Assembly (NCBI GenBank): GCA_947090755.1
Contig: CAMUPF010000009.1
Location: 1-64,000 of the forward strand
Direction: 5' to 3'
Source: an uncultured Candidatus Melainabacteria bacterium
GTDB taxonomy: Bacteria; Cyanobacteriota; Vampirovibrionia; Gastranaerophilales; Gastranaerophilaceae
Length of the DNA: 64,000 nucleotides
In this document: piece by piece, positions 16,807-61,361 of the stretch
Position numbering within the stretch: position 1 is the first letter of the stretch
Layout of the letters: each line of letters starts with the position of its first letter
The notes under the pieces: generated by a model
Databases searched by the model: none
What the model was told of the DNA's origin: nothing
Seen by the model: only the letters and a program-made list of their open reading frames with translations
Translations under genes and position numbers: made by a program

Positions 16807-17815
16807 TTAACGCTTGACGCAGCGCACAAAGCTTCTGTCATTGCGTGCATAAGGATAATGCCGCCCTGTTGTCATATATTGAAGCCACGCTTTATCAGTT
16901 GAAGAAAGTGTGCTTGACCAATAGTGTGTAGTACAGTTTCCAATAAGTTCTCTATTGTAAAACATTGCGGCCAACTCATCCCTATTTGGTAATCTGCTTT
17001 CGCTGTCTATTTTCAGACATAATGCGCCTGCATCATATTGATTCGGAGAGGTAGACAAATCATGCACAAGAGGCATAGGAGCAACGACAACAGGGTCACT
17101 CGGGTACATTACCGTCATAAAACCTATGTCTTTTCCGACTGTATTTGGTCCTTTATTACCGTTTAAATCATATATAAAATTGGCACACATTTTGGGTTGC
17201 GCGAAAAACCCTTCGGTTTCAGCCATACTTCCTGAACAATTAGGATTATAAAATATTGCAATGCTTTCACCGTTCTGGGTTTCAAATGCCGCTGCTTTTG
17301 TATCAAGCTGTGAATATTTCCAGCTTCCATCCGGCCCACCTTCTGCATATCCGCTTGTTGATACACTTGAATTAAACATACTGTTCAATTTAACCAGTGT
17401 GGTTGGGAAAGAAGCAATCAAACTGCCAGCCATATTGGTAAATTGATTAGGAATTCCGCAATCGGCGAGGTGATCGGCGTCGCAAATGTTGTTAATTTTT
17501 AAAACTTTTGAAAGTCCTTCAGTAACAAAGGTTTCGGCGGCCGTATCCACTGCGGAGGTTGAATCGTTGCCCTCAGTCAGGGTTCCGTAACCGTTCAACG
17601 CCGGCATTAAAGCGATTGCCTGCGACATTCGGGCATAAAGCGCTTTTCTTTGTGTGTTCCATGTCCGTTCGTTAATGTTGCCGGTCAGCGACGGCAAGGT
17701 TATCGCCGCAACCACACCAATAATCGTCAATGACAGAAGTATTTCTGCCATCGTAAAACCTTTAGTCAGGCGGCTAAGACCCCCCCCCTGTCCATGTTAA
17801 TAGTCTAGTTTTCAT
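16807..17815 (-). CDS. Pilin-like adhesin A, G-tract leader (frame broken as sequenced)
   Basis: A type IV pilin-like gene. ATG at 17815 begins a leader (MKTRLLTWT) followed by nine G. The pilin frame then reads LSRLTKG|FTMAEILLSLT, with the prepilin peptidase site G|F and Glu at +5 of the mature protein. With 9 G the ATG frame hits TAG after the tract; 8 or 11 G would join ATG to pilin. From the internal MAEILL (17751) the frame is open for 314 aa. Shared family blocks are GNINERTWNTQRKALYARMS, a Cys pair NICDADHLADCG, FETQNGES and CANFIYDLNGNKGPNTVGKD. The C-terminal domain has SESRLPNRDEL, YWSST and RCVKR, resembling DUF1566/Lcl_C. It stands alone between obgE and glgC. Confidence 0.85.
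17780..17788 (-). repeat. Homopolymeric G tract, 9 nt (minus strand)
   Basis: Nine G in the leader of pilin A. The pilin frame is joined to the ATG when the length is 8 or 11. Confidence 0.95.
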
Positions 17816-21638: not shown

Positions 21639-22677
21639 TTATCGTTTAACACACCAGAGAGGTTTGTTTTCCGCATAAGAAAGGTCATCAATTTCACCTT
21701 TATGCATCATAACACTTATCGCAACACGTATTCCGTTGGGCGCAACTGTAAGATGTGATGTCCAATATATGTCATCGGTCAATCCTTTTGGTTTCAACAA
21801 ATTTTTATTAACAAACATTGAATATCCTTCTTCAAGATTCGGCATACGGTATTCAGAATCAAAATTATTACATGCTTTCGAAGCCGCCGCAAATTTTGAT
21901 GCCGGCAATGTGCTTAATGCCGGATACGGAGCGACGACAACGGGGTCGCTGGGATACATCACCGTCATTACGCCAATATCTTTGCCAATGGTATTAGGAC
22001 CTTTATTACCATTTAAGTCATAAACAAAGTTTGCACAAACTGTTCGCTGATACAAATCACCAACATAAATCCCAGAAGAGGCTCCACCAAAATGGAGAGT
22101 CTGCAAATCTCCTATACAGTACGGGTTAACATAGGCAACGAAGCTTTCACCATTCTTAGTTTCAAAAGCAGCGGCCTTGGTGTTTGGTATATAAAACGAC
22201 TGATAAATATTACTTAATGAGCCCACCATCAATGGGTTCAAATCCTTCATTGTTTTTGGCAAATCTAGTTGTGTTCCATCAAGTGTTGTTAACTTAGATG
22301 ACAAACCACAATCCTCTAGATGACCTGAATCACAAATATTGTTTATCTGCAAAACTTTACTCAACCCCTCCGTGATAAAGGTTTCAGCGGCAGTGTCCTC
22401 AACTGTACTACCGTTTTCATCTTCAGAAACAGTTCCGTAGCCATTCAATGCCGGCATTAATGCGATTGCCTGACTCATTCGTGCATAAAGCGCTTTTCTC
22501 TGCGTATTCCACGTGCGTTCGTTAATATTTCCGGTCAGTGACGGTAATGTTATCGCCGCTACCACGCCGATGATGGTTAACGACAGAAGTATTTCTGCCA
22601 TCGTAAAACCTTTAGTCAGGTGGCTAAGAAAACTCCCCCCCCCCCCCTGCACAAATTAATACATTCTTTTGGTTCAT
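21639..22677 (-). CDS. Pilin-like adhesin B, G-tract leader (frame broken as sequenced)
   Basis: The same family as pilin A. ATG at 22677 (MNQKNVLICA) is followed by 13 G, and the pilin frame then reads SFLSHLTKG|FTMAEILLSLT, a canonical prepilin site. With 13 G the ATG frame ends at TAG; 12 or 15 G would restore it. An in-frame GTG at 22652 just before the tract has no ribosome site and is unlikely. The N-terminal ~70 mature residues match the other copies. The C-terminal part is divergent (SEYRMPNLEEGYSMF, IYWTSHL, WCVKR) and looks like a weaker version of the DUF1566-like domain. Located between dnaJ and a small hypothetical gene. Confidence 0.85.
22635..22647 (-). repeat. Homopolymeric G tract, 13 nt (minus strand)
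   Basis: Thirteen G in the leader of pilin B; lengths 12 or 15 would place ATG and pilin in one frame. Confidence 0.95.
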
Positions 22678-24837: not shown

Positions 24838-26086
24838 TCAACGCTTTACACACAGAATGTTCCAGGCAGCGCCGGGCAAAGGTATTCTATAATGTCCCCA
24901 AGCAAATCCCAATACAATATTGGTTATAACACTTCCATTCAAAGCTTTCGTGGATGAAAACATATGTCCGTCACCCATATTAATGCCATGAATATTGGTG
25001 TTTATAAATAAAGCCCCTAACTCATCCTTTGTTGGGATTCTATAATCAGCGCCGGTTTGCTGTGTACAGACTTTTGAAGCATCATTTGAACTAACATTTG
25101 TAAAAATTTGCCGATATGGTTCCGGAGCAACCACAGCGCTATCGGTAGAATATAACACTGTCATAAACCCGATATCTTTTCCAACCGTGTTAGGTCCTTT
25201 CGTGCCATTCAAATCATAAACAAAATTCGCGCAAATTTTAGGCTGTACGTAATAATAATAAACTTCTCCGGAACTTCCTGCACAGAAAGGATTATAATAA
25301 ACTATAATGCTTTCACCATTTTGTGTTTCAAACGCAGCGGCTTTTGTATTTAGCATAGAATGAGAGCCATATTGTGATGCTGCCGGTTGAAAAGCGTATA
25401 ACATCAGGGAATTCAAGCTTTGCATGTTAGTCGGTAAGTTTTTAGTATTACCCAACATATCTGTATATTTTGTGGACAAACCGCAATCCTGCAGATGCTC
25501 TGCGTCACAAATGTTGTTAATTTTTAAAACTTTTGAAAGTCCTTCAGTGACGAAGGTTTCGGCGGCTGTGTCGATTGCTTCTTTTGCAGAGGTTTCTCCG
25601 CTGGCAGAAACTGCTTCTTGCAATGTTCCATAACCGTTTAAAGCAGGCATTAAAGCTATCGCCTGACTCATACGAGCATAAAGAGCTTTGCGCTGGGTAT
25701 TCCAAGTACGCTCGTTAATGTTGCCGGTCAGCGACGGCAAAGTTATCGCAGCCACTACGCCAATTATTGTCAATGACAATAAAATTTCAGCCATGGTAAA
25801 CGCACGACCCGCCGGCTCTCCGCCCTTCGCGTTAAACGCCAACGCTCGCGCCGCCTCTCGCAAAACAATACTCAATTGTTTTGCTCGGCAGAGTGCGAAA
25901 GAGCGCGGTCTTCCGCGTCGCGCGCTCGACTCTTCGTAGTTTCCGCTCAATTGACGCGCGGAAACTACTTCGTGGCTCTGTTTTCTTACATCCTTCGTTG
26001 TCCATTCGCAAGGGGCGTAATGTATAGATGCCGGCTCAGCCGGACTCCCCCCCCCCCCCTGTCCATGTTAATAGTCTATTTTTCAT
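24838..26086 (-). CDS. Pilin-like adhesin C, long GC-rich leader (frame broken as sequenced)
   Basis: ATG at 26086 (MKNRLLTWT) precedes 13 G, then an open leader of about 75 codons joins the pilin at GRA|FTMAEILLSLT. The residue before the cut site is Ala rather than Gly, so processing may differ. With 13 G the ATG frame stops at TGA; 12 or 15 G would open the whole gene. The leader is Arg/Ala-rich and its DNA contains perfect hairpins of 11 bp (25936-25946/25958-25968) and 9 bp (25861-25869/25875-25883). The pilin body matches the family, with a C-terminal domain containing YRIPTKDELGALF, FSST and LCVKR. Convergent with mnmE. Confidence 0.8.
26047..26059 (-). repeat. Homopolymeric G tract, 13 nt (minus strand)
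   Basis: Thirteen G in the leader of pilin C, followed by a CCGGCTGAGCCGG palindrome. In-frame lengths are 12 or 15. Confidence 0.95.
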
Positions 26087-39608: not shown

Positions 39609-40322
39609 TTAGATTACGAGAAGAAGTTTGACAATTCCGAGCGTCAAAAGACTCAACGCCGCAAGCGCACCCCACAACCCGATTTTAATTTTACGGTTAA
39701 GAGTGAAAAACGGCGTAGGACTGGATTTTGCAACTGTCGGATATTTGTCAAATTTTGACTTCGAAGATTTACGTTTTTTAGGCGTTTCTTTAACCTTTCT
39801 GCGCCGCTCCATTTCATCTTCTTTTGCCTGCATTTGTAAATATTTTTCTTTTAAAGTGTTTTTATCCTTGCTGCGCTTGCCTGTAACCAGAAGTTCTTCG
39901 TCAAAAAGAAGCTTTGCCACAGCGCTATCCTGCCCGTTTTTCGCAGAATAAAACATTACGGCGACCTCAAACGCGCGCTGCAAACATTCCAGAGCCTTAA
40001 TCCCGTCTTTAGCAACCGCGCGCGTGTGCACAGACTGGTTTCCGGCTTTTTTCAGAAAATACAAATCACTGATAAGTTCACGTTTCTCCGTACAATTAAT
40101 CAAATAATCATCAAGATTTGCAAGCATCGTATCAAACGTATCGTTCGGTTGATGGTTTCCGTTTAAAAGTTCGCGGCATACATTTTCGGCAAAACATCTT
40201 GTCTGAGTCATACACTGCTGAAAATATTCGTCACGATAAAGTGCCTCAGACTCCCGCGCCAGCTTAAAAATATTCCGATTTATTTCTTTTAAAAAATAGA
40301 AGTTGCTCTCTGTTTTTACCAT
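39609..40322 (-). CDS. DUF4145-like protein with C-terminal membrane anchor
   Basis: A 237-aa protein. The N-terminal ~120 residues resemble the helical DUF4145-type domain, often found at the start of restriction or signalling proteins (ENVCRELLNG, LYFLKKAGNQSVHT). A Lys/Arg-rich charged segment (~155-200) follows, and a single C-terminal hydrophobic helix (IGLWGALAALSLLTLGIV) suggests a tail anchor. No restriction genes are nearby. Function unknown. Confidence 0.6.
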   Translation of the reverse strand: MVKTESNFYFLKEINRNIFKLARESEALYRDEYFQQCMTQTRCFAENVCRELLNGNHQPNDTFDTMLANLDDYLINCTEKRELISDLYFLKKAGNQSVHTRAVAKDGIKALECLQRAFEVAVMFYSAKNGQDSAVAKLLFDEELLVTGKRSKDKNTLKEKYLQMQAKEDEMERRRKVKETPKKRKSSKSKFDKYPTVAKSSPTPFFTLNRKIKIGLWGALAALSLLTLGIVKLLLVI

Positions 40323-40479
40323 TAATTTGCTCCTGACAATTTTCTGCCGAGATTATCAATCTCGTTGAAAATTGAAACGTCGCTGATATTATGCTCGCCT
40401 GCTCGTTTCGCTCTCGCGAACCGACACCGCGAGCATCGGCTCACACAATTTGTAACAATTTCTTAACATATTTGCCAAT

Positions 40480-40508
40480 TTGTGTCATGATTTTAAATCT
40501 TGTAGTAT
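40480..40508 (+). promoter_or_regulatory. Promoter of the candidate small RNA, TTGTGT-17-TAGTAT
   Basis: TTGTGT, 17 nt, TAGTAT. No convincing ORF follows, but a hairpin and a terminator do. Confidence 0.45.
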
Positions 40509-40514
40509 CATGCA

Positions 40515-40592
40515 TGTACAACTATTCCAAAATCTCCTCCCAAGATTTTATGTATGAGTCCTTAAGTTTATATAACTAAGGACTTTTCTTTT
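40515..40592 (+). ncRNA. Candidate small RNA with C-rich loop
   Basis: A ~78-nt transcript is predicted between a promoter and an intrinsic terminator in an otherwise empty gap. Its first hairpin (40529-40535/40543-40549, AAAATCT/AGATTTT) shows a loop CCTCCCA, complementary to GGAGG ribosome sites and, with one G-U pair, to runs of G. The 3' hairpin AGTCCTTA/TAAGGACT (40557-40564/40577-40584) is followed by a T-rich tail. The flanking genes are on the other strand, and the hairpin has no T tail in that direction. The rest of the 292-bp gap (40323-40479) holds only GC-rich inverted repeats. Confidence 0.45.
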
Positions 40593-40614
40593 GACTTATA
40601 TTGGCTGACGCGGT

Positions 40615-41226
40615 TTAAAACTCGGTCTTATTCTCCACGCCCTTAACCAAGCGTTGAACGTTTTCCCGATGGAGATAAGTAATATAAATTGCACCGACAA
40701 CAGCGTATGCAACGTACGCAATTGGTGAGCCCAGCAAGAACATTGTTACAGGCGTTGACCAGATTGCAATTATTGAACCGAGTGAAACATATTTACTTGT
40801 TTTAGTAATCGCAACCCAGGCGATACCGAAAACTACGGCTGCAACCCAGTTAAGAGCAAGGATAGTTCCAACGCCTGAGGCAACTGATTTTCCGCCGGTG
40901 AACCCTAAGAAAATTGATTTGCTGTGTCCGAGTAACACTGCGACCGCCGCAAGCACAGGAAGCAGCCCCAGTCCCGCAAAAGCGCTGGTAAAGTGCTGCG
41001 CAAGAAGCACAGGCAGCATTCCCTTGAACATATCTAAAAACAGTGTAATAAAAAACCATTTTTTGCCCATTACGCGTTTTACGTTCGTTGCGCCCGTCGA
41101 ACCGGAACCGATTTTTCTGATGTCTTCGCCTTTGAAATGTTTAACAATAAGATATCCGGTCGGAATTGAACCAATTACGTATGCAACTGCAACCGTTAAA
41201 ATTGTCTGAATTATTGCTGATACCAT
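40615..41226 (-). CDS. plsY: Acyl phosphate:glycerol-3-phosphate acyltransferase
   Basis: A 203-aa membrane enzyme that makes lysophosphatidate from acyl phosphate and glycerol-3-phosphate, the substrate for the PlsC proteins at 26-27.5 kb. Motif 1 is GSIPTGYL, motif 2 GSGSTGATNVKRVMG and motif 3 GFTGGKSVASGVGT. About five helices. It begins 1 bp after the waaA stop, so it is the last gene of a bioD-like/waaA/plsY operon. Confidence 0.95.
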   Translation of the reverse strand: MVSAIIQTILTVAVAYVIGSIPTGYLIVKHFKGEDIRKIGSGSTGATNVKRVMGKKWFFITLFLDMFKGMLPVLLAQHFTSAFAGLGLLPVLAAVAVLLGHSKSIFLGFTGGKSVASGVGTILALNWVAAVVFGIAWVAITKTSKYVSLGSIIAIWSTPVTMFLLGSPIAYVAYAVVGAIYITYLHRENVQRLVKGVENKTEF

Positions 41227-43260: not shown

Positions 43261-43285
43261 AAAAATATAAAAATTTGGAGGTATT

Positions 43286-44435
43286 ATGAAAAATAGAAAC
43301 CTGAAAAGCCGTGATTTATGGGCGTTTCCGCTGAGGGGGGGGGGGCAAGGCGAGCAGAGCCGCGAAACTTGCGTTAGCAAGTGAAGAGTCGAGCGCGCGA
43401 CGGCGAAACCACGCTTTCGACGCAAGCGCGAGCGTCGGCGTTTTACGCGAGCCGCAGTCGTGCCGTGCTGGCTTTACTATGGCTGAGATTTTGCTATCAT
43501 TAACTATCATCGGCGTAGTTGCGGCGATTACATTGCCTAGTTTGACAGGCAACATTAACGAACGAACTTGGAACACACAACGAAAAGCTTTATACGCCAG
43601 AATCTCTCAGGCGGTATCACTCATGCCCGCTCTTAACGGTTACGGAACAGTAAAAGAAGCATCTTCCGAGGGCGCAAATGACGCTGTAGACACAGCAGCC
43701 GAAACATTCTTAACCTCAGGTCTTTCTAAAGTTCTTAAAATTAACAATATTTGTGATAATTCCCACCTTGCTGATTGCGGCATAGTATCTGCAATAACCA
43801 ATATGGGCGGGGTTTCTACAACAATGCCGACAACGTTGTATACATTACACGACGCATTCAGCAGTGTTGCTTGGTCAGGAAGTTCGTTCTCTACACTTGA
43901 TACAAAAGCCGCAGCGTTCGAAACCCAGAACGGTGAAAGCATTCTTGCGTTCTATAACCCTTTTTGCAGGACGGATTATCTTAACGAGGCAAGTTTAACC
44001 AACGGGGGGAATGTATTCGGATTTCCGGAATCGAATATGTGTGTGAATCTTATTTACGACTTAAACGGCAGCAAAGGCCCAAACACCGCGGGAAAAGATA
44101 TAGGAATAATAACCGTATTTAATGCGACTGATTCAGTTACAGTTGCACCTATGCCATCAGCAGCCGTAAGCGCTAACAACAATTCAACAGTAGCATGGAT
44201 AGATTCATCAAGGGCCTGCACCGCGCAGGATTCTGAGAGCCGACTCCCCAATATTGATGAATTAGCTGCGATGATAATTAATAAAGACATTTTTAATATA
44301 ACAAATACACCTCATGCTACATACTGGTCAAGCACTGTATTAAATTCAGAAAGAGCATTAACCGCAGGAATAAGCGGTTATCGGTTTTCAGACATAAAAA
44401 CTCTGGAATTGGGTGCACGTTGCGTTAAAAGATAA
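43286..44435 (+). CDS. Pilin-like adhesin D, long GC-rich leader (frame broken as sequenced)
   Basis: ATG 43286 follows GGAGG. The leader (MKNRNLKSRDLWAFPLR) contains 11 G, then an open ~48-codon Arg/Ala-rich stretch leads to CRAG|FTMAEILLSLT with a canonical cut site and Glu at +5. As sequenced the ATG frame ends at TGA; 10 or 13 G would join it to the pilin, and in the present pilin frame a TGA lies directly before the tract. From MAEILL (43479) the frame is open for 318 aa. The C-terminal domain shows SESRLPNIDELAAM, YWSST and RCVKR. The leader DNA is almost identical to that of pilin E. Confidence 0.85.
43335..43345 (+). repeat. Homopolymeric G tract, 11 nt
   Basis: Eleven G in the leader of pilin D. 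In-frame lengths are 10 or 13. Confidence 0.95.
43346..43482 (+). repeat. GC-rich leader cassette, copy in pilin D
   Basis: From the end of the G tract to ATGGC this segment is identical to 60275-60411 in pilin E. It contains ACTTGC/GCAAGT (43367-43382) and CGACGC/GCGTCG (43418-43437) hairpins. The pilin C leader shares two blocks with it, including a 20-bp identity. Confidence 0.85.
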
Positions 44436-49569: not shown

Positions 49570-49772
49570 AAGGTTGCATTACTTTCTTGTTTACTGTATT
49601 ATTTCATTCAAATAATACCATGAAAAATGACAAATAAGAATGAGATTATAAAATTTTTGTAATTTTTTCTTAACAAAGTAGCAAAAAAAAATTGTTTTGG
49701 GTTTTATATAAACGATGCACGCTAAATTTGGATAAATTTGTCGTGCGAGTAGCAGAGGATGAGGATAGAACG

Positions 49773-60189: not shown

Positions 60190-60214
60190 AAATATATAAA
60201 TTTTTGGAGGTATT

Positions 60215-61361
60215 ATGAAAAATAGAAACCTGAAAAGCCGTGATTTATGGCCTTTTCCGCTAAGGGGGGGGGGGCAAGGCGAGCAGAGCCGCGAAACTTG
60301 CGTTAGCAAGTGAAGAGTCGAGCGCGCGACGGCGAAACCACGCTTTCGACGCAAGCGCGAGCGTCGGCGTTTTACGCGAGCCGCAGTCGTGCCGTGCTGG
60401 CTTTACTATGGCGGAGATTTTGCTGTCATTGACGATTATTGGTGTAGTTGCCGCGATTACGCTGCCATCATTAACGGGTAACATTAACGAACGCACATGG
60501 AACACACAACGAAAGGCACTTTACGCAAGATTTTCGCAGGCAATCGCACTTATGCCATCCTTAAACGGTTACGGGAATTACAACGGAACAAACACCGACG
60601 GAATTGTTTCAGTTACTGAAGATACCGCAGCCGAAACTTTTCTTACAGAAGGATTATCCAAAGTTCTTAAAATCAACAATATCTGCGACGCCGACCATCT
60701 GTCTGACTGCGGTATCGTTGCTTCTTATACAAATATGGCCGGAAGCATAAAGAACTGGCCCAAAAAACTTTCCGAAATGAATAGTATGTTTACAAACACT
60801 TCATATAAAGAAAGTGCAGGAAACGGAGTAACAAATTCATATATTAACCCACAAAAAGATATCGACACAAAAGCCGCAGCGTTTGAAACACAAAACGGCG
60901 AATCTATTGCGGTTTATTACAATCCCAACTGTCAGGGAAGTTTAGCTGAAACAAGCTGGCACTATACACAACCCAAAATGTGCGCTAATTTTATTTATGA
61001 CTTAAACGGGAACAAAGGCCCAAATACAGTTGGTAAAGATATCGGATTTATAACCGCGATTTATCCTGCAGATTCAGTTGTTGTTGCGCCGGTTCCGCTA
61101 ACACGTAATCTCTCGGGCGGCAAAAAACAAATAGAAGCGGGAAAAGCGTGTCATGAAATGGATTCGGAATCAAGATTACCAAATATTGAAGAACTTATGG
61201 CAATGTTCTACAATCGTGATATGCTCGGGATTAATGCCGGACTTTACTGGTCAAGCACTGTAATATCCCCGACAGTTGCATGGCACTTAAACTTTGGTTC
61301 TGCGGACAGCGGGCCACACCCGCGGGCTAATAGTTTTAATATTCGCTGCATTAAACGATAA
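60215..61361 (+). CDS. Pilin-like adhesin E, long GC-rich leader (frame broken as sequenced)
   Basis: This has the same layout as pilin D: ATG 60215 after GGAGG, an MKNRNLKSRDLW leader, 11 G, a ~48-codon GC-rich stretch and CRAG|FTMAEILLSLT. The ATG frame ends at TGA as sequenced; 10 or 13 G would join it, and in the present pilin frame a TAA lies directly before the tract. From MAEILL (60408) the frame is open for 317 aa. The leader is nearly identical to D, while the mature part shows many synonymous changes. The C-terminal domain has SESRLPNIEELMAMF, LYWSST and RCIKR. Confidence 0.85.
60264..60274 (+). repeat. Homopolymeric G tract, 11 nt
   Basis: Eleven G in the leader of pilin E. In-frame lengths are 10 or 13. 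Confidence 0.95.
60275..60411 (+). repeat. GC-rich leader cassette, copy in pilin E
   Basis: Identical to 43346-43482 in pilin D from the G tract to ATGGC. The identity ends as the mature pilin coding region begins. Confidence 0.85.

Follow-up and report, generated by a model that had tools for sequence, protein, structure and literature searches.

In the 64,000-nucleotide stretch of an uncultured Candidatus Melainabacteria bacterium analysed here (the window), the space that separates a gene of 237 aa (39609-40322, minus strand) from plsY (40615-41226, minus strand) holds a copy of sRNA-A, which on comparison of genomes is a genuine, previously undescribed small RNA family extending over the order Gastranaerophilales. 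In the reading that we consider likely, this is a gene in its own right, encoding a trans-acting RNA of about 75 nt, which would pair with ribosome sites of mRNAs and would be activated by RpaB. Comparison across the order brings out a conserved promoter, a C-rich segment that hardly varies and a terminator conserved in structure, and shows that the locus is inherited without fixed neighbours; transcription of the RNA and translational repression by it are predicted.

The elements of the locus are compiled in Table 1. The promoter, the 7-bp hairpin with the loop CCUCCCA and the T-tailed terminator on the plus strand, all of them described in an earlier note on this DNA, can be read directly in the sequence. 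The non-coding stretch of about 78 nt given there does contain a candidate RNA, whose length is here re-estimated at about 75 nt, its start at ~40518 being an estimate from the position of the -10 hexamer. The terminator is missing from a terminator scan because its loop exceeds 8 nt. Folding of 40516-40594 yields -15.1 kcal/mol, against a mean of -8.2 for shuffled sequences, and beats 199 of 200 shuffles (z -2.8); in the predicted ensemble the CCUCCCA loop is ~100% unpaired. The sequence CTCCTCCC occurs a single time in the window, which alone is unremarkable since 0.39 occurrences are expected.

Table 1. Features of the sRNA-A locus, possible targets in the window and loci of the related sRNA-B
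Feature	Position	Strand	Remarks
HLR1-like direct repeat TTTGTAACAATTTCTTAACA, predicted RpaB/OmpR-type site	40449..40468	+	half-sites 11 bp apart; about -69 to -50
Weak -35 hexamer GTGTCA	40482..40487	+	spacing 18 to -10
-10 hexamer TATCAT	40506..40511	+	read directly
sRNA-A, predicted ~75-nt transcript	40518..40592	+	covariance model R1, 78.8 bits, E 5e-15 (copy was in the training alignment); order-wide conservation
Conserved segment for pairing, in the window ATTCCAAAATCTCCTCCCAAG or close to it	40524..40544	+	ATCCCCAAATCTCCTCCCAAG in most relatives
7-bp hairpin, loop CCTCCCA 40536-40542	40529..40549	+	AAAATCT 40529-40535 with AGATTTT 40543-40549
Intrinsic terminator	40557..40592	+	stem AGTCCTTA 40557-40564 with TAAGGACT 40577-40584; tail TTTTCTTTT to 40592
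Pilin D ribosome site and start (TTTGGAGGTATTATG), possible target	43274..43288	+	GGAGG within
Pilin E ribosome site and start, possible target	60203..60217	+	GGAGG within; predicted duplex -20.0 kcal/mol
Poly-G tracts of 9-13 near pilin starts	17780-17788, 22635-22647, 26047-26059, 43335-43345, 60264-60274
Further sRNA-B loci	L119-L130, L138, L145, L150, L152, L155, L157, L164, L165, L169, L170

A covariance model of sRNA-A (R1), built from 19 copies, finds the RNA at E <= 0.01 in 241 of the 286 genomes of the order and in all 7 of its 7 families, usually as one copy per genome. At the window the match to R1 is full-length, with the C-rich core AAAUCUCCUCCCAA followed by the terminator, which places the locus in the family. 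A nucleotide search of 38 relatives recovered sRNA-A in the same genus, in the same family and in other families, the -10 element and the C-rich core being the strongest parts. Absences are concentrated in certain genera (g38, g39 and g43 among them), and one genome from the genus of the window lacks the RNA as well. Sampling of the class beyond the order brought no convincing match, one reaching E 0.0088. An exact-pattern scan of contigs returned, among the matches listed, only records of Gastranaerophilales, Melainabacteria or Cyanobacteria, bins without names and apparently mislabelled metagenome-assembled genomes; the titles Fusobacterium and Brachyspira that appear there look like mislabelled metagenome bins.

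Conservation of the loop in relatives had been named in advance as a test that could refute a small RNA at this place, and the loop is kept order-wide. The segment AAAUCUCCUCCCAA is nearly invariant across the order. In 46 divergent copies the AAAUCU-CCUCCC-AA columns are 96-100% identical, AAATCT is present in 46 of 46 and the flanking C in 96-98%, so that the conserved segment can be written CCMAAAUCUCCUCCCAA. A C-G pair of the loop stem is lost in 11 of the 46, including all copies from family f3, while the C-rich segment stays, which argues that what is conserved is the pairing sequence and not the hairpin. The terminator stem varies freely in sequence and yet 94% of its cells are paired, with compensatory change in 8 of the 8 modelled pairs (46 sequences). 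Over the whole structure, two-sided changes affect 101 cells against 29 expected from shuffles, in an alignment that was fitted to the structure and whose rows are related by descent; the result agrees with that of a smaller alignment made with MAFFT. Since the segment is kept without a strict stem and the terminator pairs are kept as pairs, selection, as read from these alignments, acts on the exposed C-rich sequence and on a functional terminator.

The most natural use of such a segment would be pairing with ribosome sites of the GGAGG type. The core of sRNA-A is complementary to UUGGGAGGAGAUUU, which resembles a ribosome site, and the predicted pairing of its unpaired anti-Shine-Dalgarno segment with UUGGGAGGAGAU ribosome sites amounts to -22 kcal/mol. 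In the mechanism that we propose, the unpaired UCUCCUCCCAA would imitate the anti-Shine-Dalgarno end of 16S rRNA, pair with purine-rich UUGGGAGGAGA-like ribosome-binding sites of several mRNAs and thereby block their translation.

The search for targets was made in about half of the genome (834 kb). Enrichment at ribosome sites is weak there: an uninterrupted match of at least 8 complementary bases is present at the ribosome site of 23 of the 769 predicted genes, while permuted seeds that keep the CCUCC core gave 12.7 +/- 5.3 matches and reached 23 in 4 of 100 cases; at 9 or more bases there was no significant excess at the ribosome sites of these same genes. The top predicted target in the 834 kb is a PilT-type ATPase (L386:7359-8489, minus strand; -21.7 kcal/mol). 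Around its ribosome site and start codon, two blocks, GAGGAGA and UUUGGAA, could pair with sRNA-A. In two near-identical relatives a PilT-type gene has a 9-base match. The PilT-type candidates, chosen after the fact, are a lead only. Across genomes, a search of 21 genomes with the full complement TTGGGAGGAGATTTGGG, at most 3 mismatches being allowed, gave only scattered matches besides sRNA-A and its paralogues. Two further scans, of 29 and of 97 genomes, looked for GGGAGGAG or TTGGGAGGA just ahead of an ATG; among the sites read (in the second scan, 30 of ~90 places read gene by gene), no gene recurs beyond one genus. Within a genus, a gene for a 78-aa protein recurred three times in g33, and flgB twice in g24. 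Many matches of the first of these scans proved to be the related RNA sRNA-B read antisense and were discarded.

The surface pilus is where plausible targets of sRNA-A would lie, both pilins and PilT-type ATPases. The proposal that the loop can pair with the GGAGG of pilins D and E agrees with the presence of that motif at both ribosome sites, and in one relative (G015) a pilin mRNA offers 12 perfect pairs across the ribosome site, a best match that is biased because it came from a complementarity search. As a group, pilin ribosome sites did not match sRNA-A significantly better than those of other genes (n = 10, P = 0.12).

A different and rather unlikely role is that of a RepG-like regulator, in which the C-rich loop pairs with phase-variable poly-G in pilin mRNAs and the length of the tract sets the degree of control. 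Helicobacter pylori RepG binds a G-repeat in the 5' untranslated region of tlpB through its terminator loop, with an effect graded by repeat length (PMC8295292). The two RNAs are alike in pairing a C/U-rich loop with G-rich mRNA, and in both genomes there are poly-G phase-variable genes. Poly-G runs of at least 8 are common in the sampled loci of the bacterial family, and many precede pilin-like proteins (FTLAE/FTMAE). Such runs shortly after the start of pilin-like genes recur across genera (L042, L055, L058, L227, L255, L293, L294, L305, L345, L346), which suggests that phase variation of pilins is a general trait of the family. Pairing of the loop with poly-G, as the earlier note had foreseen, is predicted to be favourable, about -17 kcal/mol for G9 or longer against -9 for an ordinary AAGGAGGU ribosome site. 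However, the predicted seed duplex strengthens only up to 9 G and is flat beyond, so that little difference is expected over the 9-13 G of the tracts in the window. These tracts lie ~45 nt inside the pilin reading frames, after the start codon, and not in a leader as in tlpB; the loop of sRNA-A belongs to a separate hairpin and not to the terminator. Moreover, binding of poly-G would not need a segment as long and as specific as the one conserved here, and pilin ribosome sites are not significantly enriched. The length-dependent control of pilins that had been suggested by analogy with RepG thus finds no support; the poly-G runs common before pilin-like genes and the 12 pairs of the G015 pilin mRNA keep it from being refuted.

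About equally improbable, in our estimate, is that the C-rich segment is a protein-binding site, by which the RNA would sequester or guide an RNA-binding protein, pairing with mRNA being secondary. If its partners were mRNA targets that shift, the segment would not have to vary as little as it does, and no conserved target was found when looked for across genomes. On the other hand, a segment that matches ribosome sites and is exposed in a loop or a linker is the usual design of pairing small RNAs, and no protein of this phylum is known to us as a candidate for binding CUCCUCCC.

That the locus codes for a short peptide, or serves a neighbouring gene in cis as its attenuator, leader or 3' UTR, is contradicted by comparison and retains very little probability. 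Its intergenic position upstream of the 237-aa gene and downstream of plsY, and a 62-aa frame that overlaps it, would fit such readings, but the flanking genes lie on the opposite strand, and from genus to genus the locus has different neighbours in different orientations. Upstream there may be aroQ, a glycosyltransferase, a RelA-like protein or others, and downstream others again (neighbour gene names rest on reading of their sequences). sRNA-A is therefore an independent gene, neither leader nor 3' UTR. Terminator lengths change and no start codon is common to the aligned copies, so no conserved peptide is encoded. Both the short-ORF and the leader readings were consequently rejected, on the alignment and on the changing neighbourhoods. 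A chance hairpin and terminator without function, conceivable given how frequently promoter and terminator consensus matches arise by chance, is practically dismissed by the order-wide conservation and the compensatory changes.

In sRNA-A promoters, TATCAT is the -10 hexamer in 83 of the 129 distinct ones in which a hexamer could be placed (150 examined). Upstream of the weak -35, the pattern TGTAAM-N6-[TG]TAA is present in 113 of 150 distinct promoters, against a background of ~1%. In the most frequent arrangement, seen in 76 promoters, it starts 56 bp ahead of the -10 hexamer, which puts it at about -68 to -50. Many of the remaining promoters carry variant repeats, some of them with the 10-bp spacing of HLR1. 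The half-sites of HLR1, KTTACAWW-N2-KTTACAWW, recur on the reverse strand, mostly with 11-bp spacing, and two TGTAAM at 10 bp were found in 11 of 150. A matrix scan placed the repeat of Table 1 among 16 sites in 834 kb of the genome. In Synechocystis and Synechococcus, HLR1 located upstream at about -45 to -66 corresponds to activation by RpaB (PMC13421787), and RpaB is kept in Melainabacteria, throughout these non-photosynthetic lineages (PMC4040986, PMC5877343). The genome encodes four OmpR-type regulators, one of which passes the RpaB equivalog cutoff (NF045944, 356 bits, cutoff 330). From motif, position and gene content, we reason that sRNA-A transcription is probably activated by RpaB, which would switch it on from the HLR1-like repeat ~60 bp upstream of the start; with a repeat spacing of 11 bp rather than 10 bp, another OmpR-type regulator could bind instead. 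Under RpaB activation the RNA would carry the signal of RpaB, redox in cyanobacteria, to translation.

Further HLR1-like repeats stand upstream of genes in this genome, at 49656-49675 of the window, at L380:6405 and L377:5007, on the minus strand of L368 and on both strands of L372; one of them precedes a 141-aa gene ahead of aroQ and another an OmpR-type regulator (L354). They possibly delineate a small RpaB-type regulon.

Weak matches of the sRNA-A model first led to a second RNA, sRNA-B, with the core CCMAAACCUCCUCCCCAAGUCUAGUAGCCGC, also given as AACCUCCUCCCCAAGUCU, which has CCMAAAYCUCCUCCC-AAG in common with sRNA-A. It is present in 283 of the 286 genomes of the order, the copy of this genome being at G000:C4:75571-75645 (L116, L344), and some genomes have several copies, in some of them in tandem. 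Beyond the order, a search of the wider phylum with the sRNA-B model (R2) gave only marginal matches. R2 aligns over its full length with sRNA-A copies (E 3e-10 to 1e-3 in relatives, 0.03 for the window copy), and hence the two RNAs are most likely paralogues. Both are of similar length, are single genes and end in a terminator, whereas the core of sRNA-B is single-stranded, forming part of the linker that joins a 5' hairpin to the terminator. The promoter of sRNA-B is of the sigma28 type: of 31 sampled copies, 30 have a sequence like TAAAGTTT-N11-GCCGATAA, and in 26 the spacing is the canonical 11 bases. Many gut members of the order are reported without complete flagella, and sRNA-B is kept nonetheless. 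In two genomes of family f7 (L173, L174), 10 bases of the sRNA-B core have their exact complement in GGGAGGAGGU, the ribosome site of flgB; flgB is a possible flagellar target of sRNA-B. Genera g2 and g10 (L132, L133, L135, around 1520-1600) contain a third candidate RNA, also C/U-rich, with AGAGAGAG stretches, CAUUCCUAUUCCUACCUUCCUAAAACAAAUUUAAGCCCC and a terminator. We tentatively propose, at odds that we consider to be against it, that sRNA-A and sRNA-B form a two-input pair, in which RpaB would switch on the former and a sigma28-type motility factor the latter, one anti-Shine-Dalgarno core being directed to shared surface and motility mRNAs.

A scan with Rfam 15 (Yfr1, 6S and others) returned no family at its gathering threshold anywhere in the window. 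The only match on the locus at E <= 5 was mmgR/suhB (RF00519), which scored 16 bits where the gathering threshold is 41 (E 0.52), and membership of sRNA-A in a family of Rfam was accordingly rejected. The alphaproteobacterial mmgR and 'cuckoo' RNAs such as CcsR1-4 likewise expose a C-rich CUCCUCCC-type loop before a terminator, but CcsR1-4 have a fixed partner gene, ccaF1, sRNA-A has none, and the phyla differ; the likeness is probably convergent. Campylobacter CJnc230 (FlmE), with a link to flagellar genes, has an unpaired anti-Shine-Dalgarno stretch as sRNA-A does, and CjNC1/CjNC4 are sigma28-dependent paralogues linked to flagellar genes, in this respect comparable with sRNA-B. These belong, however, to another lineage with no known sequence relation, and the sRNA-A promoter is of the sigma70 type, only that of sRNA-B being sigma28-like. 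Within the phylum, Synechocystis PsrR1 is a small RNA of the RpaB regulon, as sRNA-A would be. Acting in high light, it keeps mRNAs of photosystem I and of the phycobilisome from being translated, mRNAs which are absent in Gastranaerophilales, whereas the site position at sRNA-A predicts activation by RpaB. No described regulatory RNA was found for Gastranaerophilales in the literature or in Rfam. RNAs of this kind, pairing through an anti-Shine-Dalgarno segment, are already known; what is new is the members of the family and the probable link to RpaB.

Gastranaerophilales are abundant, mostly uncultured gut relatives of cyanobacteria. An RNA as conserved as sRNA-A, together with its near-universal sigma28-type paralogue, can serve directly as a marker in metatranscriptomes and offers a first entry to post-transcriptional control in these bacteria. 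Through the HLR1-like element of its promoter, the role of RpaB in non-photosynthetic lineages becomes testable and, if the two-input pair holds true, RpaB would gain a role in bacteria without photosynthesis.
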